Source: an uncultured Phycisphaeraceae bacterium
Lineage (GTDB): Bacteria; Planctomycetota; Phycisphaerae; Phycisphaerales; UBA1924
DNA length: 64,000 nt
Assembly (NCBI GenBank): GCA_937899905.1
Contig: CALCCF010000099.1
Span: forward strand, 1-64,000
Reading direction: 5' to 3'
Part shown: positions 403 to 14,760 of the stretch, in pieces
How the letters are laid out: each line of letters starts with the position of its first letter
Numbering within the stretch: position 1 is the stretch's first letter
Position numbers and translations under genes: made by a program
The notes under the pieces: generated by a model
The model's input: only the letters and a program-made list of their open reading frames with translations
Told to the model about the DNA's origin: nothing
Database searches by the model: none

Positions 403-657
403 GGAACCGGCAGGGGGCCAAAACCGGTGTTCTCGGGTGTTCCGACTCAGACTGGGCCCTCGACGTGACGATGCAGGAATGTGCTGGTGGTGGCGAACCC
501 GTCGCCGGCTATGGAGTATGGCTTCGGACCGGTCCCTGGGCTCTCTTGAGGCATTCGGGCATCGGGCTGATAACAATCGTGACCTTCAGCCGGGCCAGGG
601 TTGGCCCGAGCAGTACATGAGACATCGCTCTCGCACAGGGCAAGGGGTGCGTTCCCG

Positions 658-2160
658 ATGACCGACACGACACGACCCACACGCCGCGGATCGCACGGAC
701 GAGCCCGCCGGCTGGCCACCCCGGTTCTGGTGCTGGGCACCCTGCTGCTGGGCGGCTGCCACATGCATGGCTGGTTCGACCAGAGCGTCATTGGCCGCTG
801 GGAGGTCACGCCGACCACGGCACCGATCCTCGACCGCATCGAAGCGATCGAGGGGCCGGACGACGAGTTCGTCCAATTCAGTGAGGTGACGCCCGACGAC
901 CTCGTGCCGCGTCCGCGCGAGTACCGCGTTGGTCCGGGCGACTTCCTCCAGATCATCGTGTTCGATTTGCGTCCCGGCGGAGCGCCCGGCGAGTTTCAGA
1001 CGGTCGTTGACACCCGCGGCATGGTCTACCTGGAGGAGATCGGCGAGGTGCCGGTCTCCGGGCTTACCGCGGATGGCATCCGCGAGGCGGTTTCGACCGC
1101 CGCGCTCGACTTCGTGAGCCGCCCGAACGTGCTGGTCCGCGTTCTCGAGCGACGCCAGTCGACGTACACGATGGTTGGTGCCACGGTCGCCGGCACGTAC
1201 CCGATCCCGAAGGCAGACTGGTTCCTGATGGACGCGCTGGCGGCCTCGGGCTGGCTGCGAGAGGGCACCGAAGAGATCTTCATCATCCGCCAGATCCCGC
1301 TTTCAGAAGTAACTGGACAGGACTTCGGATCGATGGATCCGCAGGGCGGTCCATCCCAGCAGCCAGCGCCGAGCGGTGCCGAGTTGCTGGACGATGTCGA
1401 TCGATTGCTCGAAGGCGGTGCCAGCCCCGGGGCCTTTGGCGTCGTCCAAGACGGCGACGGGCCGGGCTCGCAAGAGTCGCTGATCGATCTCATCGATGAC
1501 CAGCCCGCTCGCGTGCAGCCCTCCGACGATGCTCGGGGCTTGGGCGACCAGGAAGCCACCTGGATGTTCCTCGATGGGCAGTGGGTCCGCGTGAACCCTG
1601 GGACTCGGGCGATGGCCGAGCAGCGTGCCGATGGTGGCGTGCTGACCGGCGATCTCACGGCGGGCCAGATCGTGACCCAGCGGATCATCCGCGTGCCCGC
1701 GCAAAAGCTGATCCAGGGCGACATGCGTTACAACGTCGTCGTCGAGCCTGGCGACATTATCCGCGTCCCGGCTCGCCTCGACGGTCTGTACTTCGTCGCC
1801 GGCTTTGTGAACCGGCCCGGCGGCTTCGCGCTGGCCCAGCGGCTCACGCTGATGCGTGCGATCGATCAGGCCGGCGGCATTAACCAGCTTGGCGTGCCCG
1901 ATCGGATCGAGCTTGTTCGCATGCTCGACGACGATCGCCAGGCGATCATCCAGTTGAACCTGCGGGCCATCAACCGCGGCCTGGAGCCGGACATCTACCT
2001 GAAGCCAAACGACCGCATCAACGTCGGCTCGGCCATCTGGGCCTACCCGCTCGCGGTCGTTCGCAACGGATTCCGTGCGACTTACGGCTTCGGATTCCTG
2101 CTAGACCGCAACTTCGGTAACGACGTCTTCGGCCCGCCGCCGCTGGACAGCCGGTTCTGA
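658..2160 (+). CDS. Polysaccharide export lipoprotein, Wza-like (Poly_export/SLBB)
   Basis: Predicted outer-membrane or periplasmic export component of an exopolysaccharide machine. It has 500 residues. The ATG at 658 gives an Arg-rich n-region, a hydrophobic stretch and a lipobox (LLGG then Cys34), so it should be a lipoprotein; a longer in-frame start at 601 would bury this signal. A Poly_export-type block starts near residue 88 (EYRVGPGDFLQIIVFD). A long, acidic, low-complexity middle follows (about residues 220-340), and a second beta-grasp/SLBB-like block lies near 350-470 (VVEPGDIIRVP, then FVAGFVNRPGGF). AAGGGG stands 11-16 nt upstream of the ATG. It begins the exosortase/EPS locus. 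Which polymer it exports is not evident. Confidence 0.88.
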   Translation: MTDTTRPTRRGSHGRARRLATPVLVLGTLLLGGCHMHGWFDQSVIGRWEVTPTTAPILDRIEAIEGPDDEFVQFSEVTPDDLVPRPREYRVGPGDFLQIIVFDLRPGGAPGEFQTVVDTRGMVYLEEIGEVPVSGLTADGIREAVSTAALDFVSRPNVLVRVLERRQSTYTMVGATVAGTYPIPKADWFLMDALAASGWLREGTEEIFIIRQIPLSEVTGQDFGSMDPQGGPSQQPAPSGAELLDDVDRLLEGGASPGAFGVVQDGDGPGSQESLIDLIDDQPARVQPSDDARGLGDQEATWMFLDGQWVRVNPGTRAMAEQRADGGVLTGDLTAGQIVTQRIIRVPAQKLIQGDMRYNVVVEPGDIIRVPARLDGLYFVAGFVNRPGGFALAQRLTLMRAIDQAGGINQLGVPDRIELVRMLDDDRQAIIQLNLRAINRGLEPDIYLKPNDRINVGSAIWAYPLAVVRNGFRATYGFGFLLDRNFGNDVFGPPPLDSRF

Positions 2161-2260: not shown

Positions 2261-3238
2261 GTGAGCGTCGCGTCGGCAACACGTTCGATCGAGCAGGCGG
2301 ACACCAGCGCGGTGGCCCTCGGCTCGGTGCGTGGGTCCGGTGTGGCAATCCTGGCGATTGGTGGACTGATCGCGTTCGTGTGGCTGTTCTGGCAGTGGTT
2401 CATGCGCCAGGGCAACATCAGCATCAACCAGCTCGACGACTGGGGCCACGCGTTCGCCGTACCGGCAATCACGGGCTACCTGCTGTATCAGCGGCGTGAG
2501 CGTTTGCTCAACGCCGTCGCCCGCCCGTTCTGGCCTGGGTTGGTGCCGTTGCTCTTGGGCATCGCGTGCTACGTCTTTTTCATCATCGGTGTGCCCACGC
2601 ACATGTTCCAAGGCTTCGCGCTGGTGCTGGCGATCTTCGGCTTCGTGCTGCTGGTCTTCGGGCCCAAGGTCATGCACGCGGCGATCATGCCGATCGCGTT
2701 CCTGCTCTTTGCGGTCACGATCTCCGAGCGGATCATGATCGCGATCACGTTCCAGCTGCAGCTCATCGCCAGCCAGGGCGGCTACCTGCTGCTAACGATC
2801 TTCGGATTCCCCTTCGGCATCGAGTCGGTGGTGCAGGGCAACATCATCAGTGTTTTTGACGACACGGGCACCGAACACCAGCTCAACGTTGCTGAGGCTT
2901 GCAGCGGCATGCGCATGGTTGTAGCGTTCATCGCGCTCGGTGCGGCGGTTGCACTTTCTCAGTGCAAGCAATGGTGGCAGCGGGTCGCGGTGGTGCTGCT
3001 CTCGCTCCCAGTAGCCATCGGCCTGAACGTGGTCCGCGTCGCCGTGCTCGGCTTCCTGACCGTATTGGTTGATCCGGAACTCGCTTCTGGCGAGGCTCAC
3101 ATGATCATCGGCACGCTGCTGCTCGTACCCGGCCTGGGGCTCTTCCTCCTGCTCGTGTGGATCCTGAATCGTGTGGTGAGTGACGAGCCCAGTGAGCCCG
3201 AGCCAGATGCCACGAAGGCCAAGGCGGTGAAGGCATGA
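2261..3238 (+). CDS. Exosortase/archaeosortase family protein
   Basis: Multi-pass membrane cysteine transpeptidase of the exosortase family, expected to cleave and re-attach proteins that carry a C-terminal sorting signal on the outer face of the inner membrane. It has 325 residues and about eight hydrophobic segments. The family triad is complete: Cys214 in EACSGMRM, Arg259 in NVVRVAVLG and His280 in EAHMIIG. The start is GTG at 2261, preceded by an AGAGGGGAG ribosome-binding site. Its stop overlaps the EpsI-like gene by 4 bp, so the two are probably translationally coupled. The flanking EPS genes fit the known co-occurrence of exosortases with exopolysaccharide loci. The exosortase subtype cannot be assigned by eye, and no substrate with a PEP-CTERM-like tail is encoded in the window. 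Confidence 0.92.
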   Translation: MSVASATRSIEQADTSAVALGSVRGSGVAILAIGGLIAFVWLFWQWFMRQGNISINQLDDWGHAFAVPAITGYLLYQRRERLLNAVARPFWPGLVPLLLGIACYVFFIIGVPTHMFQGFALVLAIFGFVLLVFGPKVMHAAIMPIAFLLFAVTISERIMIAITFQLQLIASQGGYLLLTIFGFPFGIESVVQGNIISVFDDTGTEHQLNVAEACSGMRMVVAFIALGAAVALSQCKQWWQRVAVVLLSLPVAIGLNVVRVAVLGFLTVLVDPELASGEAHMIIGTLLLVPGLGLFLLLVWILNRVVSDEPSEPEPDATKAKAVKA

Positions 3239-4149
3239 GCAGCTCGAAGAGCAAGATCCTGGGTCTGCCATCCTCGATCGCGATCGCTGCTGGGGTGGCC
3301 ATCGTGATCCTGGGCACGTCCGGTGCTGTTCTGGGCATCTCGATCCGGGCTTTGGGGTTGTACCTGCAGAAGAGCCCGATCTATCCGCGAACGGGGCTGG
3401 AGATTCGCGAGCTGCCCGCCGAGTCGGAGAACTGGAGGCGCGTCGGTCCCGACCGCTTCGAGTCTCCCGAGATCGAGGTCACGCTCGGCACGACCAACTA
3501 CGTCACGAGAACGTATGAGGAGAAGAACCCGGCCGAGGGCGAGCCGCCGCGGCAGATCGACGTGCACGTCGCGTACTACACCGGGTCGATCGACACCGTG
3601 CCACACATCCCGGAGCGTTGCTTCGTGGGTGGGGGCATGCAGATCGGCAGCGGCACCCGCGTCGTCGATCTGGGACTCGATAGCAGCGGGTGGCTCCCGA
3701 TGCGCGATGCACCCGAGTCGATGCAGGGGCGGTCGTACACCAAGACGCTTGCTCGAGGTGTTTACTCGAACCGGCCAGGCCAGCGCGTCCTGCTACCGAT
3801 GGACCCAGGCGAGATGCAGCTCCGCGTGACCGAGTTCGAGGTCCCGGGGCGGCCGAGCTTGTACGCTGGTTACTTCTTCATCGTGAACGGCGAGCATCGC
3901 TCAAGCGCCGAGGGTGTCCGGCTGCTCGCCTTCGATCTCAAGACCGATTACGCCTACTACCTCAAGGTCCAGTTTAATAGCCAACGGGTCGAGAGCCCGG
4001 AGGAGCTGGCCGAGGTTGCCGCCGACCTTCTCGACGACATCCTGGGCGAGCTCATGCTCTGTGTGCCCGATTGGTCCGAGGTTGTGAGCGGTGAATGGCC
4101 CGAGGATGGCGCTCGGGGTGGTACAGAAGGAACAGCTACGAGGGGCTAA
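3235..4149 (+). CDS. Exosortase-associated EpsI-like protein (DUF3485)
   Basis: Partner protein of exosortases. In many systems this domain is fused to the C-terminus of the exosortase; here it is a separate 304-residue protein. One transmembrane segment (about residues 12-36) is followed by an extracytoplasmic domain. The conserved family block is VPHIPERCFVGGGM with His124 and Cys129, the equivalent of the HxPExC stretch in EpsI. The ATG overlaps the exosortase stop codon (ATGA). The downstream TPR gene starts 45 bp after its stop. The family's biochemical role is not established, but its presence supports the exosortase call next door. Confidence 0.85.
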   Translation: MSSSKSKILGLPSSIAIAAGVAIVILGTSGAVLGISIRALGLYLQKSPIYPRTGLEIRELPAESENWRRVGPDRFESPEIEVTLGTTNYVTRTYEEKNPAEGEPPRQIDVHVAYYTGSIDTVPHIPERCFVGGGMQIGSGTRVVDLGLDSSGWLPMRDAPESMQGRSYTKTLARGVYSNRPGQRVLLPMDPGEMQLRVTEFEVPGRPSLYAGYFFIVNGEHRSSAEGVRLLAFDLKTDYAYYLKVQFNSQRVESPEELAEVAADLLDDILGELMLCVPDWSEVVSGEWPEDGARGGTEGTATRG

Positions 4150-4193
4150 TCCCCGGCGGCCGCGTTGCGGCGATTCGCGAGACGGAGGCAGAT

Positions 4194-7100
4194 ATGGCAG
4201 CTCGTGTAAATGTGCGTTTTGTTGCGATCCTCTGCACGATCGTGGGAGTGGTCTTCGTCGGCATGGCCGGCGCCGCGTACTTCATCGTGAAGAAGTCCGC
4301 GTCCGACCACTTCGCGACCGGCCAGGAGTACTACCAGGTCGGCGACTTCGTCGAAGCCGAAAAGGCATTCGCCAAGGCGGTCAACAAGGAGCGTACGAAC
4401 ACGGTCTACCTCGAGCGTTGGATCGAGACCATCGAGAAGCTCACGCCCGAGACGCGCGTCAGGTACGCCGACGTGTACAGCAAGAACTACGTGCCCGGCT
4501 TGCGGCAGCTCGCGGTGGCCAAGCGCACCGATGTCGACGCGTGGGAAAAGTACCTCGAGACGATCTACGAGCGCCTGCAGATCTTCGGCGCCGGCAATCG
4601 TTCCGGCTGGCAGGTCCTGCTTTCGGAGACCAACGCGGCCATCGAGTACTTCCTGGTCACGCAGGACGCCGACGACGATCAGGCGGATTGGCATCGCCTG
4701 CGTCGCTATCGGGCCCTGAGCAACCTGAACATGCGATCCGCGACCGGACGCGCCGACGAAGACTTCCGCGACAAGACGATCCTGGATTTCGAGGCGGCGA
4801 TGCGAGTCGATCCGATGGACGCGGACTCGGCTGTGGGCCTGTACGAGTGGCTCATGACCGAAGCCGATCGAGCCGAGGACACGCGCGACGATCCGGAGGT
4901 CTACCTCGCCCGAGCACGTGAGGTGCTTGATGGCTTCCTTGCCGCGAATCCGGACCAGCCACGCGCCCGTCTCGCTCGCGTTTTTTACGATTTGCGCGAG
5001 CGTGCCCGCGGCTTGCGCGATCTCCGAGTTCAGAGTGAACGAATCCAGGCCAACATCGCGTTGGCGGCCGAGTTTCGGCCGCGGCTCGAGAGCGTTGTTG
5101 AAGAGGTCCTGTCGACCGCCCGCCCCGAGTCGCTCACGATCCATGTTGCCGAGCTTACCAACCGGCTCGAGCGCGTCATTGCGCCCGGTGCTGGCATCCC
5201 GATGACGCAACGCGTGATTGCGGCCGCCCGCGAGGGCAACGCAGATAGCCCCGGCGATGTCGCGATGCTCGACTTCTTCGAGGGGGCGTTCCTGGCAGAT
5301 AGCAACGAGCACGAGAAGGCGATCGCCGCGCTCGAGCGCGTCCTGGAGGCGCCGCTGGTTCCGATCAGCCTTGAGGGCATGCTGCTTTCCAACATGCGGG
5401 CCGATGCGGTGCTCAAGCGCGTGCGTAGCGCAATCGACCTGTACGGCTCGGCCGAGGGGGACGACGTCGCCCCGGCGTTGGAGCGAGTGCTCAGCCTTCG
5501 AGAAGAAGTGGACGAGCTCGTGCCGCAGGGCACGCCTCAGCTTCTGTTGATCGATGCCCAGATCGCGCTCATCCAGCGCAACCTCGCCGACGCGCAACGG
5601 CTGGCGGTTTCGTATCAGCGTGAGGCCGGTATGGCCGACCCCGAGGCGAGCTTTTTGCTCGGCCGGATCTACATGCAACGTAACCAGCCCGGCCAGGCCC
5701 TGCAGGAACTCGAGCGGTTTGTCGAGCTGAGTCCCAACGTGCCGGGCGCGTGGGCGCAGCTGAGCTCGCTTCGAGATCGTGTTGGTGATCGCGATGGCGC
5801 GCTCGAGGCGATCGAGCGAGCGTACAGCCTCGCGCCGGACGATCCGGGCATCCAGCGCCGCTACGGGGCCGTGCGAGCGATGCTGAATATCGAGCGTTCC
5901 ACCGACCCGGTGACCAACCTGCTCGTCGCCGTCGAGCGGCTGATCGACACCACCGGCGGTGTCTCACCGAAGTACAACGAGGCGATCGCACTGGTGTTGC
6001 GTGGGATCCAGGAGATCGGCGACAACGAGCTTCTCCATATCACGCTCGTACGCCTGTACTCGATGAAGGGCGACAACGAGGCGGGCATCGCGGCCGCTGA
6101 GCTGGCCATCGTGCTCTTCCCCGAGAACGAGAGCCTGCGGCAGCTTCGAACCGCCCTGCGGTTCCGTGAGGGCGAGATCCCCGACTCGATCCAGGGCATC
6201 CGTCGCACCATGCTCGAGTATCGCCAGGCGGCCACCGAGGGCCGAGACGATGACGCTCGTCGGCTGCTCGAGCGGGCCGAGACCGAAGACCCCAACGACT
6301 CCGAGCTCCTGCAGATCCTGATCGGCCTCGCAATCACGGAGCGCGACTTCGAGGCCGCTCGTGGCTACGTCGATCGAGCGACCGCGTTGAACATCGACCA
6401 GGCCAACGGCCGGATCCTCCGCGCTGACCTGCTTGAGGCCGAGGGCCGGGCCGAAGAAGCGCTCACGATGATCGACTCGGTCATCGACGACGGCCTGTCG
6501 AGCGTGCCGGTCCTGTACCGCAAGGCCCGAGTCCTGCGCACCATGGGACGCACCGAGGACTCTATTGAGGTGTTTGAGGACATCCTCCGCCGCCAGCCCG
6601 ACAGCGTCGCCAACATCCGCGAAGTCGTGGCCGCACTGGCGCAGCTCGGTCGCCAGCGGCGTGCCCTGGAGATCGCGCGGGAGTCGCAGCGTGTTGCCGG
6701 TGCGGATTCGGCGTTCGTCGACACGTGGTTGCGGCTCGAGGCCGAGGTCGGCGACGCGACCGCCGCCATGCTCAAGCGTGAGGACATCCGGGATGACGAG
6801 CCCGCGAACCGCAGCAACAACCTGGCGCTCGCGAGCGTGTACCTGCGGCTCGGCGAGTGGGCCAAGGCCCGGCCGCTGATCGACGCGCTGCGTGCTGAGT
6901 CCGACGACATCTCATTGGTGCTGCTCGACGCGCGTTGGCACGCCGAGCAGGGCGTGCTCGCGCGAGCGATCGGTGTATTCGATCGGTATCTGTCGGCGCG
7001 TCGGGACGCCGGACAGCTCGACGCTCGCGACGTTCTCGTGTACGCCAACTTCTTGCAGGTCGAGGGTCAAGCGAACCGCGCGATCGCGCTGATTCGTGGC

Positions 7101-8795
7101 TCGAAGGATGTCGACATCGCCGAGGGCCGTCCGCTCTGGAAGCGACTGGCGTTGCTGCTGTTCGCGACGAACCGGATGGACGAGGCCGTCGAAGTCATGG
7201 ACGAGCTCATCGCCGCGGGAGTCGATGACGACGGCGTGCTCGAGTTGGCACGCGTCGAGTCCTTCATCATGAGCGGCGATTTCGACCGTGCCCAGAGTGC
7301 TCTGGACAACCTTGGTGCTGTCGCTCGTTCGACGGAAGAGGCGGGCATTTTGGCTGCCAACCTCGCCGTGCGTCGTGGTGATCGCCGTGCGGCCATGCAG
7401 GCCATCAGCAACACGCTGGCAACCTTCCCGACTTCGGCCCGGGCCTACGTCCGTCGCGCCGAGCTGATCTGGGAGGACATCCAGGGCGACGACACGCTGC
7501 CTTCCGCGGAACGGGTACAGCTCCAGCGGGACGCCGTTGGCGATCTCGAAGAAGCCATCAAGCACAACCCCGCGGCCTGGGAAGCGCATCGCCTGTTGGG
7601 ACAGATCGCTCTCGAGGATGGTCGCTACGAAGACGCCGCGAGGCATTTCGCCACCACGATCGAGCTGCGACCGAGCCAGGCTCCGCTGCGCACGATGCTG
7701 GTCACCACGCTGCTCGAGCAAGGGGATGTGCCGCGAGCGATGACCATCGTCGATCGCGCCGTGGAGAGCGACCCGGCCAATGTGGACCTCCGGGTCTCTT
7801 TTGCCCGTCTGCTCGCAAGCCTCGACCAGCCAGCGGACGCGATCCGGCTGTTCGAGTCGGCTCTTGCGCAGCGTCGCAACCCAGAGATCGCGGCGCAGCT
7901 CGTCGAGTTCTTGCTCGGCTTGGGCAGCTCCTCCGATCTCTCGCGGGCGCGTCAGGTGTTGAACGATCCCAACCTCAATGTTGATGGAACGTGGCAGCTG
8001 AAGCTCATGGAGGCGGCGGTCTCCCTCGCCGAGGGAAACCAGCGCCGTGGCGTCCTCGAAGCGCGTCAGTCCTTCGAGCTTGTGCGACGAGACACCCCCG
8101 CGGTCGTCAATTGGTTCAACACGATGCCCGCATTGATCGAAGACCACCCGGTACGCATGCAGATCGCGCTCCAGCTCGGGGTCGAGGACACCCCGGAGCG
8201 GGTGGGCGAGATCATGCTCGCATCGCTCATGCTGCAGGATGCGGCGACGGATCAGCAGGGCATCGACGACCTGCGGCGCCTTTCCGTCGATCAGAACATG
8301 ACGATCGCGTTGCGTGCGGGCCAGCTGCTCGGCGACACCTTCTATCGCCGCGCCCAGTATGAAGAAGCGGCGGAGGCCTGGCGTGGAGTTGTCGGAAAGG
8401 CGCCCGACGCTGGGCAAAGCCTGAACAACCTCGCGTTCGTGCTCGCGACCGAGCTGGGCGGGTGCGATGAAGCGATCGATCTGGCAATTCGCGCCAAGGA
8501 CGCCCCGGGCGTGGCGCGGACGATCGTGCTGAGCACGCTCACTGTGGCGTACTTGGCATGCGATCAGATCGAGAATGCCGAGCAGAGCGTGGGCGAGCTG
8601 GTGAGCCTCTCCCGGGGTTCGCCCGAGGAAGCCCTGGCGGCCATCCGCAGGGGCCAAGTTCTTCTGTACAAGGGGCTCCGCTCGGAGGCGGAGCGGGCGG
8701 CAGAGAGCGCCGAGGCATTGATCAACGCGACCGGCGGCCGCGCCGATTCGTATCGCTCGATCCTGGAGGATTTCCGGACCGAGCTCGGGCAGTGA
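4194..8795 (+). CDS. Giant membrane-anchored TPR protein of the exosortase/EPS locus
   Basis: A 1,533-residue protein with one N-terminal transmembrane helix (about residues 8-30) and then almost entirely helical TPR-type repeats, seen as recurring Ala/Gly/Pro signatures such as DPEASFLLGRIYMQRNQPG and HNPAAWEAHRLLGQIALEDG. The start is ATG 4194 behind GGAGG (5 nt spacing); an in-frame ATG at 4095 would overlap epsI and lacks this site. Known EPS/exosortase loci often carry a large TPR protein (PrsT-like) thought to scaffold secretion or assembly. By position this is the likely counterpart, but sequence identity to PrsT was not checked. It is anchored and probably periplasmic. The length is well above that of typical PrsT proteins. 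Confidence 0.85.
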   Translation: MAARVNVRFVAILCTIVGVVFVGMAGAAYFIVKKSASDHFATGQEYYQVGDFVEAEKAFAKAVNKERTNTVYLERWIETIEKLTPETRVRYADVYSKNYVPGLRQLAVAKRTDVDAWEKYLETIYERLQIFGAGNRSGWQVLLSETNAAIEYFLVTQDADDDQADWHRLRRYRALSNLNMRSATGRADEDFRDKTILDFEAAMRVDPMDADSAVGLYEWLMTEADRAEDTRDDPEVYLARAREVLDGFLAANPDQPRARLARVFYDLRERARGLRDLRVQSERIQANIALAAEFRPRLESVVEEVLSTARPESLTIHVAELTNRLERVIAPGAGIPMTQRVIAAAREGNADSPGDVAMLDFFEGAFLADSNEHEKAIAALERVLEAPLVPISLEGMLLSNMRADAVLKRVRSAIDLYGSAEGDDVAPALERVLSLREEVDELVPQGTPQLLLIDAQIALIQRNLADAQRLAVSYQREAGMADPEASFLLGRIYMQRNQPGQALQELERFVELSPNVPGAWAQLSSLRDRVGDRDGALEAIERAYSLAPDDPGIQRRYGAVRAMLNIERSTDPVTNLLVAVERLIDTTGGVSPKYNEAIALVLRGIQEIGDNELLHITLVRLYSMKGDNEAGIAAAELAIVLFPENESLRQLRTALRFREGEIPDSIQGIRRTMLEYRQAATEGRDDDARRLLERAETEDPNDSELLQILIGLAITERDFEAARGYVDRATALNIDQANGRILRADLLEAEGRAEEALTMIDSVIDDGLSSVPVLYRKARVLRTMGRTEDSIEVFEDILRRQPDSVANIREVVAALAQLGRQRRALEIARESQRVAGADSAFVDTWLRLEAEVGDATAAMLKREDIRDDEPANRSNNLALASVYLRLGEWAKARPLIDALRAESDDISLVLLDARWHAEQGVLARAIGVFDRYLSARRDAGQLDARDVLVYANFLQVEGQANRAIALIRGSKDVDIAEGRPLWKRLALLLFATNRMDEAVEVMDELIAAGVDDDGVLELARVESFIMSGDFDRAQSALDNLGAVARSTEEAGILAANLAVRRGDRRAAMQAISNTLATFPTSARAYVRRAELIWEDIQGDDTLPSAERVQLQRDAVGDLEEAIKHNPAAWEAHRLLGQIALEDGRYEDAARHFATTIELRPSQAPLRTMLVTTLLEQGDVPRAMTIVDRAVESDPANVDLRVSFARLLASLDQPADAIRLFESALAQRRNPEIAAQLVEFLLGLGSSSDLSRARQVLNDPNLNVDGTWQLKLMEAAVSLAEGNQRRGVLEARQSFELVRRDTPAVVNWFNTMPALIEDHPVRMQIALQLGVEDTPERVGEIMLASLMLQDAATDQQGIDDLRRLSVDQNMTIALRAGQLLGDTFYRRAQYEEAAEAWRGVVGKAPDAGQSLNNLAFVLATELGGCDEAIDLAIRAKDAPGVARTIVLSTLTVAYLACDQIENAEQSVGELVSLSRGSPEEALAAIRRGQVLLYKGLRSEAERAAESAEALINATGGRADSYRSILEDFRTELGQ

Positions 8796-8971: not shown

Positions 8972-11209
8972 ATGACCATCGCATCGACTACGACGAACGG
9001 CTCACTCAATGGATCGCACGGTTCTTCCGGCGGCGGTAGCGCGCAGATCGGCACCAAGGCCGCGTCGAGCGTGGATCCGCTGCGCGTCCTACGGAAGTAC
9101 AAGTTTGCGTTCGTTATCGCCGCCATTATCGGTGGTGTCTTGGGCGTCGGTGCCCACTTTGCGCTCGCCGAGTTCCGACCGACGTGGTCTACTCCGGTGA
9201 TCTACAAGTGCTATCCGCCCCAAACCGAGCCAAACCCCGACGAGCTTCGCATCGATGACGACGAGTTCGAGCGCTTCATGGCGACCGAGTCGGCCATGAT
9301 GGTGTCCGAGAACGTGCTGCGTGTAGCCGTTGAGAACCCGCGTCTGCTGAATGAAGCTCCGCGGTGGATCTCCCGGTACACCGAAGGCGGCGTTGTTGAC
9401 ATTGGCCGGGCAGCCATCGCGCTCGAAGAACAGGTTGGCGCACGTGTCATGCCCGGTACCGACCTCATCAGCATGACCGTCCGCTGGCGAGATCGCGATG
9501 AGGTCGCCACGATCGCCGAGGTGCTCAGCAGCGCGTATCTCCAAGATCTGCGTCGGCGTGGGTCCCGGTCGATGTCCGAGCGGCGAGACGCCGTGGAGCA
9601 GGCTATTCGTGGCCTGGAGGACGACTTCTCGCAGGCGGATCGGCGCCGCAGTGAGCTGGTTTCCTCTGCCCAGATGGACGTGCTGGACATTAACCAGAGC
9701 CAAGAGCGCGCCGAGATGATGATCGTGATCGGGGCCTTTCAGGAGCTTGGCCTTCAGCTCGAGGCCGTGCTGTCTCAGAAGGCCGAGATGGAAGCGCAGC
9801 TGGGCAACCCCGGCGGCCTGCAGTTCAACGAGACGCTGCGGGCCCAGGTCGAGCTCCAGCCGCTCGTCCAGAACCTGCGATCGCAGGTCGTGTTCCTGCA
9901 GGCGCAGCGTGCTACCGAGCGCGAGCGTCTTTCGGAGGACAACCCGACGATCCGGCGCATCGACGACCAGATCGCCGCGCTCAATCGCAGCCTTGATCAA
10001 GAGCGTCAGAAGCTCCTCTTCGAGCTGTTCCAGACCCAGCTTGATCAGCTTCGGCTTGCCGAGAGCCAGATCAGAGCCCAGATGGCGAGCCTCGCCGGGC
10101 GTCGTACACAGCTGGGCATGCGTCTGCAGGAGCTGGTGTTCGCCGAGACTGAGCTGAATGACATCGAGATGCGGATGGGGCAGATCCTCGAACTCCAGCA
10201 GGACTTCGAGACCGACCTTCGCATGCTCGACGCCACGGCCGCTCTTGCGACGGCTTCGCGTGTCGACGTTATCCAGTCCGCGCGCGTGCCCACGCAGATG
10301 AGCTTTCCGAAGATTTACATCGTGGTGCCCGCGGGCGTGTTCCTGCTCGTTGGCCTTACTGCGGGAATCGCGTACCTCATCGAGATGGTCGATCAGCGTG
10401 TCAAGAGCCCGGCGGACATCGCCGCCCTGCCAAGCGTGCGCATCCTCGGTATGATCCCGCACGTCAGCGAGGATCCGGCGCGTATCGACTCGCCAGAACG
10501 AGTGTTCGCCGAGCAGCCACTCACCACGATGAGCGAGAGCTATCGCCACGTTCGCGGTGCGGTGGTCAAGCGGATGAAGGCGGGCGGGCACAAGTCGCTG
10601 CTAGTCGTTCCGGCGATGCCGGGATCGGGAAGCACGACGGTGGCCAGCAACGTTGCCGAGGCACTGGCCGCGGCGGAGAACCGCGTGATCCTGATCGACG
10701 CAAACATGCGGCGACCGCGCGTACACGAGGTCTTCGGTCTGCCGACCGGTCCCGGCGTGGGCGAGATGCTCGCCGGCGCTTCGCTCGCGGATGTCGCCCA
10801 GAAGACGGGCAACCCGAACCTGCGTGTGATCACCTCGGGCGCTCCGAGCGAGCGTCAGCTTGAGGCGCTCGCGACGGGCGGCATCGCCAAGCTGATCAAC
10901 CAGGCTGCGGCCGAGGCCGACTTCGTGATCATCGATGTGGCGCCGGCAACGGTGTCGGGCGACGCCCAGGCGTTGGCCCAGGTTGTGGATTCATCGATGC
11001 TCGTGGCTCGTGCCTTTGGCGAGACGCGCGGCCAGATTGGCCGTCTGTCGCGGGAACTCGACGAGCAGCCGGCCCGGTACCTGGGTGTGCTGGTGAATGC
11101 CGCACGCAGCGCCACCGGCGGCTATCTGCGGGGTAACCTCCGAGCCGGCCACAGCTACACGGCCAAGAGCGTGCCCTCGACGAAGGCAAAGGCGAAGGCC
11201 AAGGCCTGA
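8972..11209 (+). CDS. Wzz/Wzc-like chain-length protein with degenerate ATPase domain
   Basis: A 745-residue protein with the layout of a bacterial tyrosine kinase/polysaccharide co-polymerase: Ser/Gly-rich cytoplasmic N-terminus, TM1 (about 48-68), a long extracytoplasmic coiled-coil Wzz-type region, TM2 (about 449-472) and a C-terminal P-loop domain. In the P-loop the usual PGEGKST reads PGSGSTT (550-556), so the catalytic Walker A lysine is Ser554. The Walker A' (VILIDANMRRP, near 573) and Walker B (FVIIDVAPA, near 651) stretches persist. The C-terminus has no tyrosine cluster, only a Lys/Ala-rich tail. The fold is thus kept while kinase activity is doubtful; it may control polymer length structurally. 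It sits 176 bp after the TPR gene in the EPS locus. Confidence 0.88.
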   Translation: MTIASTTTNGSLNGSHGSSGGGSAQIGTKAASSVDPLRVLRKYKFAFVIAAIIGGVLGVGAHFALAEFRPTWSTPVIYKCYPPQTEPNPDELRIDDDEFERFMATESAMMVSENVLRVAVENPRLLNEAPRWISRYTEGGVVDIGRAAIALEEQVGARVMPGTDLISMTVRWRDRDEVATIAEVLSSAYLQDLRRRGSRSMSERRDAVEQAIRGLEDDFSQADRRRSELVSSAQMDVLDINQSQERAEMMIVIGAFQELGLQLEAVLSQKAEMEAQLGNPGGLQFNETLRAQVELQPLVQNLRSQVVFLQAQRATERERLSEDNPTIRRIDDQIAALNRSLDQERQKLLFELFQTQLDQLRLAESQIRAQMASLAGRRTQLGMRLQELVFAETELNDIEMRMGQILELQQDFETDLRMLDATAALATASRVDVIQSARVPTQMSFPKIYIVVPAGVFLLVGLTAGIAYLIEMVDQRVKSPADIAALPSVRILGMIPHVSEDPARIDSPERVFAEQPLTTMSESYRHVRGAVVKRMKAGGHKSLLVVPAMPGSGSTTVASNVAEALAAAENRVILIDANMRRPRVHEVFGLPTGPGVGEMLAGASLADVAQKTGNPNLRVITSGAPSERQLEALATGGIAKLINQAAAEADFVIIDVAPATVSGDAQALAQVVDSSMLVARAFGETRGQIGRLSRELDEQPARYLGVLVNAARSATGGYLRGNLRAGHSYTAKSVPSTKAKAKAKA

Positions 11210-11259: not shown

Positions 11260-12276
11260 TTGCATGACGACGCCCCTAACGCTTCGGGACGGCCCGGCCG
11301 GGCGCTCGTCACGGGCGGTGCGGGGTTTATCGGCTCCCACCTCGTCGACCGCCTGCTCGCGCGCGGGGATGAGGTGGTTGTCGTCGATGACCTCTCAACT
11401 GGTGTCCGTGAGAATCTCCCGGCGTCGCACTCGCGACTGGCATTTGTGCAGGCCGACCTGCGCGAATGGCTCAATGCTGGAGCGGCTGAAGCCGGGCAGT
11501 TTGGCGAGATCTACCACATGGCGGCGGCCGTTGGAGTCGAGCTGATCATCACTGACCCGATCGGCAGTATCGAGACCAACACCGAGCAGACCAGCGCGTT
11601 GCTCCGTTACGCCTCGGGCGGTCGGGCGGGCACGCCAGCGGTCGTCGTGGCCAGCAGCTCCGAGGTGTACGGCAAGAGCGAACGCGTGCCATTCCGCGAA
11701 GATGACGATGTCGTCTACGGTCCGACCACGGCCACGCGCTGGTCGTACGCGTGCTCGAAGGCGCTCGATGAGTACCTGGCCTTGGCGCATCACCGCGCCC
11801 AGGGACTTGGTGTCGTGGTCGCGAGGTTGTTCAATACGGTCGGCCCCCGACAGATCGGCCGGTACGGCATGGTGCTGCCGAGGTTCGTTGCGGCGGCACT
11901 CGCCAGTGAGCCGCTTCGAGTCTTTGGTGACGGTGAGCAGGTTCGTTGCTTCTGCGATGTGCGCGATGTCTCGAGGGCCTTGATCGGTCTTGTTGGCACT
12001 CCCGCGGCGCATGGCGGAATCTACAACGTTGGCAGCTCTGCCGACATCTCGATCATCGATCTCGCTGGCCGCGTTGTCGATGTGCTGGGCTCGTCGTCCA
12101 AGATCGATCTCGTGCCCTACGACGAGGCATATGGCCCCGGCTTTGAGGACCTGCGCCGCCGCGTGCCGGATCTCGCTCGGCTCCGTTCCGCCATCGACTT
12201 TCGCCCTGAGCACGATCTCGATTCCACGATCCGGGCCGTCGCCGAAGCGATGGGACCGGCGGGAGTCTCGCGATGA
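11260..12276 (+). CDS. NAD-dependent sugar-nucleotide epimerase/dehydratase
   Basis: Extended short-chain dehydrogenase acting on nucleotide sugars, probably UDP-hexose or UDP-hexuronate, to supply the EPS pathway. It has 338 residues. The Rossmann motif GGAGFIGSH (19-27) binds NAD, and the catalytic YxxxK is Tyr163/Lys167, with SSSEVYG upstream supplying the Ser. The GPTTATRWSYACSKALDE and ARLFNTVGPRQ stretches resemble UDP-glucuronate decarboxylases and UDP-glucose 4-epimerases, so substrate choice stays open. The start is TTG at 11260 after GGGAGAG; no in-frame ATG sits nearby. Its stop overlaps the next start by 4 bp. Confidence 0.88.
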   Translation: MHDDAPNASGRPGRALVTGGAGFIGSHLVDRLLARGDEVVVVDDLSTGVRENLPASHSRLAFVQADLREWLNAGAAEAGQFGEIYHMAAAVGVELIITDPIGSIETNTEQTSALLRYASGGRAGTPAVVVASSSEVYGKSERVPFREDDDVVYGPTTATRWSYACSKALDEYLALAHHRAQGLGVVVARLFNTVGPRQIGRYGMVLPRFVAAALASEPLRVFGDGEQVRCFCDVRDVSRALIGLVGTPAAHGGIYNVGSSADISIIDLAGRVVDVLGSSSKIDLVPYDEAYGPGFEDLRRRVPDLARLRSAIDFRPEHDLDSTIRAVAEAMGPAGVSR

Positions 12277-13622
12277 TCGAGCTGCTGGCCGCAACCATGC
12301 CCGGACTCGTTCCGCCCGAAGCATCGGGGGCCGCCGATGCGCTCGCTGCCGACGAGCAACTTGCCACGACCGGTTTATCGATCTTCCACCGCTACATTTG
12401 GGTATTCATCGCGGCGTTCGCCATCACGATCATCGCGACTCCGATCGTGCGTCGGGTTGCGCTCGCCTCGGGCATCATCGATCGACCGAGTGATCCGCGG
12501 AAGGTCCACCGCGTCCCGGTGGCGTACCTCGGCGGGTTGGCCGTGTTCCTCGGCATCATGGGCGGCACGCTTGTGAGCTACCTTGCCACGGCCTGGGGCG
12601 ACCTCGGCGTGGTCTATCCCAGTGAGCACATGGTCGATGGCGACCACCACGCTGTGGTCCCGATCAGCGTGCTGCTGGGCATGACCATCATCGTGATCGT
12701 TGGGCTGCTCGATGACGCGGTGGGCATCCGGCCCGGTCTCAAGATCAGCGGCCAGCTCGTGGCCGCGGCGGCGCTAGCCATTGAGAACGTCGGCGTGCGT
12801 GTCGCCCAGGGCGTCCTGCGACCCGTGGGCGAGGCCCTTGTCAGCATGGGCGTGCTCGAGAACAGCGATCTGGTCTTTTTCATCCCGATTCCGGGTTTTG
12901 AGGCGCCGATCCAACTCAGCTTGGTCTATTGGGCGGGTGCCGCCGTCATCGCGATCTTTGTGATCGGCGCGTGCAACGCGGCCAACCTCATCGACGGCCT
13001 CGATGGCCTGCTCACAGGCTCGACGGCCATCACGGTGATGGGCCTCACGATCCTCGCGCTCTCGCTCGCCGTCATCGATCAAGGGCCACGGGACGCCCAG
13101 CGGATCGTCCTGTGCCTGGCGGTGCTGGGGGCCTGCATGGGCTTCCTGCCGCACAATTTCAATCCCGCGTCGATCTTCCTTGGCGATTGCGGATCGATGC
13201 TGCTGGGCTACTGCGCCATCGTGATCATCCTGACGCTGGGCGACATGGGCCAGACCCACCTGGTTTTGGCCGGGCTCATGATGTTCGCGATCCCCATCAT
13301 CGATAGCGTGCTGGCCATCGTTCGCCGCCGGATGAGTGGCAAGAGCATCACCGACGCCGACGACCAGCACCTGCACCACATGCTCAAGCGGTCTCTGGGT
13401 GTTAAGGGGGCCGTATTCGCGCTCTATGGCATCACGGCATGCTTCACGGCGCTGGGTCTGGCTATGAGCCTGAGCCGTGCCCGGGTTGTGTACGCCCTGG
13501 CGCTTCTTGTCGTGTGTTACGTGGGCGTGACTGCGATTAAGATCAGCCGCCGGCAGTACCTGGAGAGCCAGGCGAGCCTCGCGATCGACCGAGCCGACGA
13601 ACCCGCCCGGTCGGCCTCGTGA
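12273..13622 (+). CDS. Polyprenyl-phosphate sugar-1-phosphate transferase (WecA/TagO/MraY family)
   Basis: Integral membrane enzyme that moves a HexNAc-1-phosphate (or similar) from a UDP-sugar to undecaprenyl phosphate, the first step of polymer assembly. It has 449 residues and about 10-11 transmembrane segments. Family signatures: DPRKVHRVPVAYLGG in the first cytoplasmic loop, LLDDAVGIRPGLK, NLIDGLDGLLTG, FLGDCGSMLLGY, and the late DADDQHLHHMLKR loop that sets WecA/TagO-type enzymes apart from MraY. It is translationally coupled to the epimerase (ATGA overlap), which suggests that the epimerase makes its donor sugar. It ends 64 bp before the ParA-like gene. Confidence 0.9.
   Translation: MIELLAATMPGLVPPEASGAADALAADEQLATTGLSIFHRYIWVFIAAFAITIIATPIVRRVALASGIIDRPSDPRKVHRVPVAYLGGLAVFLGIMGGTLVSYLATAWGDLGVVYPSEHMVDGDHHAVVPISVLLGMTIIVIVGLLDDAVGIRPGLKISGQLVAAAALAIENVGVRVAQGVLRPVGEALVSMGVLENSDLVFFIPIPGFEAPIQLSLVYWAGAAVIAIFVIGACNAANLIDGLDGLLTGSTAITVMGLTILALSLAVIDQGPRDAQRIVLCLAVLGACMGFLPHNFNPASIFLGDCGSMLLGYCAIVIILTLGDMGQTHLVLAGLMMFAIPIIDSVLAIVRRRMSGKSITDADDQHLHHMLKRSLGVKGAVFALYGITACFTALGLAMSLSRARVVYALALLVVCYVGVTAIKISRRQYLESQASLAIDRADEPARSAS

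Positions 13623-13686: not shown

Positions 13687-14756
<1,070 letters not shown>

Positions 14757-14760
<4 letters not shown>

Follow-up and report, generated by a model that had tools for sequence, protein, structure and literature searches.

A fused Wzc-like protein with a probable pseudokinase domain in an exosortase-type export locus of the Phycisphaerae

Wzc of E. coli is a PCP-2a tyrosine autokinase, and the current model is that PCP-2 proteins require cycles of tyrosine phosphorylation (PMC12004946, excerpt). The open state of Wzc has K540 paired with the Walker B residue D642, which contacts T541 when the protein is closed; this picture rests partly on simulation (PMC8517177, excerpt). 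The K540M variant is unphosphorylated, forms homogeneous octamers and binds ADP-Mg (PMC8285477, excerpt), and D564 serves as an active-site reference (PMC11986026, excerpt). BY-pseudokinases are already known: EcpK and HfsB have been proposed as phosphorylation-independent scaffolds (PMC12004946, excerpt), PssP2 of Rhizobium is described as being without the motifs (PMC4182512, excerpt), and the question of a pseudokinase has also been raised for CapB1 (PMC3795738, excerpt).

The protein described here comes from an uncultured Phycisphaeraceae bacterium and is encoded in a stretch of 64,000 nucleotides, the whole of which we call the window. Its frame is intact, and the translation includes ...AMPGSGSTTVASN...

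8972 to 11209, plus strand: Wzc-like PCP-2a protein with a pseudokinase domain, 745 aa (open reading frame, profile matches, predicted fold)

Profile searches place the protein near the Wzc-type proteins, with NCBIfam matches to TIGR03018, TIGR01005, TIGR01007, EpsG and EpsF that all lie below the cut-off; the best match of the kinase-like domain is TIGR03018 (E 2.7e-29, 102 bits against a cut-off of 230.65), Pfam AAA_31, at 25.5, falls short of its gathering score of 27, and a Pfam search at E 0.01 gave no match to the Wzz model. The AlphaFold2 model, built with 61 sequences of the class, has a mean pLDDT of 88.8, with residues 541-560 at 96-97. VIA-align ranked CapAB K55M first (2ved, Z 33.6, 251 residues, rmsd 2.0, 25% identity), and also matched the model to the Wzc kinase domain (3la6, Z 33.3) and to full-length Wzc K540M (7nhr, Z 33.2, 419 residues aligned across 33-734, rmsd 9.5). 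Since the top 19 rows are all BY-kinase chains (Z 24.6 to 33.6), the cytoplasmic domain is predicted to have the BY-kinase fold, and the modelled combination of two transmembrane helices, a periplasmic domain and a fused cytoplasmic kinase fold is that of a PCP-2a protein. The sequence-only reading, made before any database search, had held that the whole Wzz part was kept; the fold and the sub-cut-off NCBIfam models support this. The protein is thought to set the polymer length of a bacterial surface sugar.

The gene is linked to polysaccharide export genes, as is expected of a PCP-2a protein, and stands in a one-strand series that runs exporter, exosortase, DUF3485, TPR, Wzc-like, epimerase, WecA-like, ParA-like, VanZ and MurJ:

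601 to 2160, plus strand: Wza-like polysaccharide export protein (Poly_export, SLBB; profile match and synteny)
2261 to 3238, plus strand: exosortase (PF09721; profile matches and synteny)
3235 to 4149, plus strand: EpsI-like DUF3485 protein (profile match)
4095 to 8795, plus strand: long TPR protein, PrsT-like below the cut-off, start codon unsure (profile matches and synteny)
11260 to 12276, plus strand: NAD-dependent epimerase/dehydratase (profile match and synteny)
12273 to 13622, plus strand: WecA/MraY-like glycosyltransferase family 4 (profile matches and synteny)
13687 to 14760, plus strand: ParA-like ATPase with KGGVGKST, within the export locus

The TPR gene adjoins the Wzc-like gene in 58/58 loci of the window's family, 39/40 of the order and 29/59 of the class. 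Among 80 named loci, some of them cut by contig ends, 68 have the exosortase, 67 the exporter and 65 the TPR gene. The ParA-like ATPase was considered as a fixed partner and rejected, as it occurs within the flanking sequence of 33/58 family, 0/40 order, 0/59 class and 24/80 named loci; the flanks reach about 5-8 kb, so some copies may lie beyond them. In UBA1926 (L297) the export locus holds two Wzc-like pieces in tandem, of which the second, at 150 bits, is without a readable P-loop.

The motifs that bear on catalysis are as follows:

10535 to 10555, plus strand: E522..R525..R528, corresponding to the ring-interface motif EX2RX2R of BY-kinases (orthologue conservation)
10619 to 10639, plus strand: Walker A PGSGSTT (residues 550-556), with Ser554 for Lys; Ser554 codon AGC at 10631-10633
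10697 to 10717, plus strand: Walker A' DANMRRP (residues 576-582), with Asn578 for the second Asp; codon at 10703-10705; Asn in 88/88 family and 39/40 other order proteins
10934 to 10945, plus strand: Walker B Asp655 and the AP after it (DVAP), kept; Asp in 88/88 and 40/40
11117 to 11158, plus strand: reduced tail GGYLRGNLRAGHSY (residues 716-729) with Tyr718 and Tyr729 (orthologue conservation, model helix)

In ungapped alignments with CapB and Etk, Ser554 falls on the Walker A lysine, just as had been read from PGSGSTT, and Asn578 falls on the second Asp of the Walker A' DxD, which by offset count is the position of Wzc D564. The A' motif had been taken as kept, and this has to be corrected to DxN. 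The B motif is indeed kept, and the tail that had been called missing is present as a short conserved motif. Of the features of an active BY-kinase, the protein thus has the Walker B Asp and is without the Walker A lysine, the DxD and the Tyr-rich tail; no substitute Lys or Arg conserved near the pocket was seen in the alignment rows. From these residues we infer that the domain would be unable to autophosphorylate or to transfer phosphate.

Whether Ser554 is peculiar to one genome is answered by its relatives. In the family, 160 of 163 genomes have a match and three have none; 88 orthologues, from 68 of 74 genera, were read. From the other families of the order, 40 orthologues of 101 matching genomes were read (f2 16, f6 16, f5 5, f4 2, f3 1), and four genomes of the order had no match. 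Residue 554 is Ala in 66, Ser in 11, Gly in 6, Thr in 4 and Asn in 1 of the family proteins, and Thr in 19, Val in 12, Ser in 4, Cys in 2, Ala in 2 and Gly in 1 of the others: small and uncharged in all 128, and Lys or Arg in none (0/88 and 0/40). Serine itself is therefore not fixed, and what is constant is the absence of Lys and Arg; the pseudokinase idea of the sequence-only reading came through this check for a lysine kept in close relatives. Around this site the family has Pro550, Gly553, Asp576, Arg580 and Asp655 in 88/88, and Thr or Ser at 555 is found in 88/88 and 40/40. The sole exception to Asn578 in the other order families is L141, which has Asp, and the first Asp of Walker A' is Glu in four and Gly in one of the 40. 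The ring-interface residues Glu522, Arg525 and Arg528 are kept in 87, 88 and 87 of the 88 family proteins, and in the 40 others the Glu and the first Arg are invariant and the second Arg is present in only 23. Outside the 40, one further protein of the order (L208) has Thr at the lysine site; in another genome (L269, G174) no orthologue was found, and the best match is an ordinary Lys/DxD kinase.

These counts, beside Lys in 17/17 relatives outside the class, exclude chance and sequence error as the source of Ser554. Median dN/dS values (NG86; seven species of the window's genus; 21 pairs, 20 for the tail), which are rough because dS is near 1, are lowest in the tail (0.087), followed by the nucleotide-site stretches (0.096), the kinase-like domain as a whole (0.10) and residues 1-480 (0.19). 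Purifying selection is thus stronger on the kinase-like domain than on the periplasmic part. A decaying pseudogene is ruled out by the low dN/dS and the intact frame. That the missing lysine reflects a sequence error, a strain mutation or gene decay, a reading for which we found no supporting point and against which stand the lysine-free relatives as well as the frame and the dN/dS, has in our view a negligible probability.

We believe, with a probability of roughly 70%, that the product is a PCP-2a co-polymerase fused to an order-wide pseudokinase, a BY-kinase domain on the cytoplasmic side that now serves as the base of the ring in an exosortase-type export locus. We propose that, because the lysine is missing, the open state with its salt bridge between Lys and the Walker B Asp could not form, and that the Asp retained in Walker B, with the Thr/Ser of Walker A, would favour the closed, ring-competent shape. 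The kinase-like domain would then be a fixed ring base in which the short tail staples adjacent subunits and accepts no phosphate. Neither the length of the polymer nor its transfer to the Wza-like exporter would depend on a tyrosine phosphorylation cycle. Polymer export in the order thus probably works without the usual tyrosine phosphorylation, and the data fit a polymer length set by structure alone. Three observations count against a ring base of this kind: a constrained pocket (dN/dS 0.096) is unnecessary in a pure scaffold, the invariance of Tyr718 and Tyr729 in the family would allow their phosphorylation by another enzyme, and only 23/40 of the other order proteins retain the ring motif's second Arg.

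The constraint on the pocket speaks for the main rival; the sequence-only reading had also allowed that the domain might bind nucleotide in another way, and with the rest of the pocket so strongly constrained this stays plausible. In this rival, binding and release of ADP or ATP would change the state of the ring with no phosphotransfer: DxN would have ended the chemistry in the ancestor of the class, and the later lysine losses would have tuned or weakened binding. The nucleotide-site stretches show the same degree of constraint as the remainder of the domain, Gly553, Thr/Ser555, Asp576 (88/88 in the family) and Asp655 are kept, and Wzc K540M still binds ADP-Mg (PMC8285477, excerpt). However, a strict PPNP-like loop is absent in 184/185 Lys-less rows, against 9/18 canonical, 26/46 Lys and 13/16 Arg rows; E, D, Q or N stands at 552 in 1/50 Lys-less rows against 25/26 Lys and 11/11 Arg rows; and Asp576 is replaced by Glu or Gly in 5/40 other order proteins. 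We consider such a switch unlikely, although it is the strongest of the alternatives.

The tail raises two further alternatives. Tyr718 and Tyr729 are present in 88/88 family proteins and in 39/40 and 40/40 of the other order proteins, respectively, and Gly717 and Asn722 are found in 88/88 of the family. In the AlphaFold2 model the tail is helical from 717 to 733 and its blocks have pLDDT 76, 81 and 64; for a lysine-bearing relative (L192) the blocks are at 59, 54 and 42, but the alignments were of unequal depth (17 against 61 rows), and we draw no conclusion from this comparison. A one-faced docking helix was rejected, since the periodicity of conservation is not significant (p 0.24, 0.29, 0.38). 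The invariant tyrosines could instead be phosphorylated in trans by another kinase, in which case a phosphorylation cycle would persist. The window's genome encodes a second Wzz-kinase protein (L096:9452-11590, minus strand, contig C25), with AEGKST and DGD intact and a tail without Tyr, in a locus with genes for DUF3485, TPR, glycosyltransferase and UDP-sugar dehydrogenase proteins, and it has three LMW-PTP genes on other contigs; moreover, 7/7 genomes of other order families have another BY-kinase-like match above 50 bits (TIGR01007). Against this, a profile search found no other TIGR01007 match above 40 bits in 9/13 family genomes, a ratio that is not a frequency since most of the nine had been picked for an earlier single match; the other four (G000, G074, G077, G078) have one each, at 93-97 bits. 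An earlier search, with at most seven candidates scored, gave one match in 24/46 family genomes. A general need for a partner BY-kinase is therefore disfavoured, although the sample was partly chosen and genomes that do have a second BY-kinase may depend on it. The drop in mean tail tyrosines from 7.0 to 2.6 also argues against phosphorylation in trans, which we regard as improbable.

The second alternative is a residual or unusual kinase activity that works through another basic residue. Tail position 720 is occupied by a basic residue in 95% of the 42 rows from the order, in 60% of those with Lys+DxN and in 0/17 canonical ones; this residue could reach into the pocket of the neighbouring subunit. 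However, two catalytic residues are gone, no new conserved Lys or Arg appears near the pocket, and the association between 720 and lysine loss rests on at most five independent pairs and is not significant, which makes such activity very improbable. The idea that lysine loss changed together with the PPNP loop or with tail positions 720 and 722 was likewise set aside: there is a raw association, but it comes down to only five independent pairs on supported branches and is not significant.

The structural pseudokinase that we favour for the order belongs to a wider pattern in the class. From the class Phycisphaerae outside the order, 63 orthologues from 17 families were read, of 161 matching genomes, and 17 loci were read outside the class. 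All 17 best matches outside the class, among the matches listed, have Lys and DxD with 4-11 tail tyrosines. In the 63, by contrast with this canonical state, Asn stands at 578 in 62, and the Walker A site is Lys in 37, Arg in 16 and neither in 10. These three states mostly track families. Family f15 has a fixed Arg P-loop (11/11; L197, L198, L249-L257), f25 has Arg in 2/2, f9 is without Lys in 8/8, and f8, f12, f14, f16, f20, f22 and f23 have Lys throughout; f11 has Lys in 10 and Thr in 1, and f19 has Lys in 3 and Arg in 1. In one f15 protein (L256) the Walker B Asp is Asn besides the Arg P-loop. L239 (f11) is alone among the 63 in combining Lys with DxD, and as it stands among Lys+DxN relatives it may have reverted. 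Counted across 267 distinct proteins, of which many are closely related, the states are Lys/Asn 45, Arg/Asn 16, other/Asn 184, Lys/Asp 19, other/Asp 1 and unreadable 2. Mean tail Tyr is 7.0 in canonical proteins (range 4-11, n=17), 4.0 with Lys+DxN (25), 4.1 with Arg (11), 3.5 in f9 (6) and 2.6 in the order (42).

A quick LG+G4 tree of 106 rows, with the motif columns removed, leaves 30 of 103 inner branches open and was flagged for two long outgroup rows that join each other. In this tree, the class proteins lie on one side of a branch (87 rows, SH-aLRT 99), and the 42 order rows (100), f9 (100) and f15 with f25 (100) each form a group. The Lys/Arg/none states require at least seven changes and the Asp/Asn states three. 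Asn is therefore old, and on the best tree the lysine losses came later and at more than one point; since the order, f9 and f11 meet in an open fork, a single loss shared by the order and f9, with Lys regained in f11, would also fit. Outside the class, two proteins (L222, L226) have GEGKD or SEGKD at Walker A, with Asp for Thr/Ser, and Asn for the Walker B Asp, and keep Lys and DxD; they are perhaps a separate pseudokinase line.

Taken as a history, these states would have the exosortase-linked Wzc of the class lose phosphotransfer at its origin through the Asp-to-Asn change, pass through a nucleotide-binding switch, and end as a lysine-free locked ring in the window's order and probably in one other lineage, which would make one orthologous gene a graded series from autokinase to structural pseudokinase. 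We offer this tentatively, at a little under even odds.

If our reading is true, a selected, fused pseudokinase, fixed in the order among the members examined, would mean that autophosphorylation is dispensable for a working Wzc-type ring. Within the class, orthologues of this one gene with Lys, with Arg and without Lys share a DxN background, and nucleotide binding, catalysis and ring assembly could therefore be separated with natural proteins rather than mutants.

In our search of the open-licence literature, no paper was found on this protein in Phycisphaerae or on graded loss across a class. We class the window protein with the BY-pseudokinases and not with the active BY-kinases. It shares with Wzc the fused periplasmic, transmembrane and kinase-fold architecture, but Wzc has Lys540 and tail tyrosines at 708, 713, 715, 717 and 718 (PMC8285477, PMC11986026, excerpts), where the window protein has Ser554, DxN and two tail tyrosines. 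The XrtA-associated tyrosine autokinase TIGR03018, exosortase-linked by name, is its top NCBIfam match, but the score is far below the cut-off. CapB1/CapAB K55M of S. aureus is the closest solved fold and bears an engineered Lys-to-Met change at the site that is naturally Ser in the window protein; in contrast, it is a two-protein Gram-positive system, and the DxD of CapB is intact. EcpK of Myxococcus and HfsB of Caulobacter likewise have a BY-kinase fold without catalytic residues and are tied to a PCP-2 protein, but they are stand-alone proteins whereas the window domain is fused; EcpK, moreover, has no Walker motif and no tail Tyr, whereas the window protein keeps most of Walker A and B and two family-invariant tail tyrosines (PMC12004946, excerpt). 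By description, SMc01795, VV1_2305 and others (Cuthbertson et al., as cited in the excerpt of PMC12004946) also have a kinase-dead domain fused to the PCP-2 protein; the account given of them in that excerpt does not include the clade-wide or graded loss seen here.
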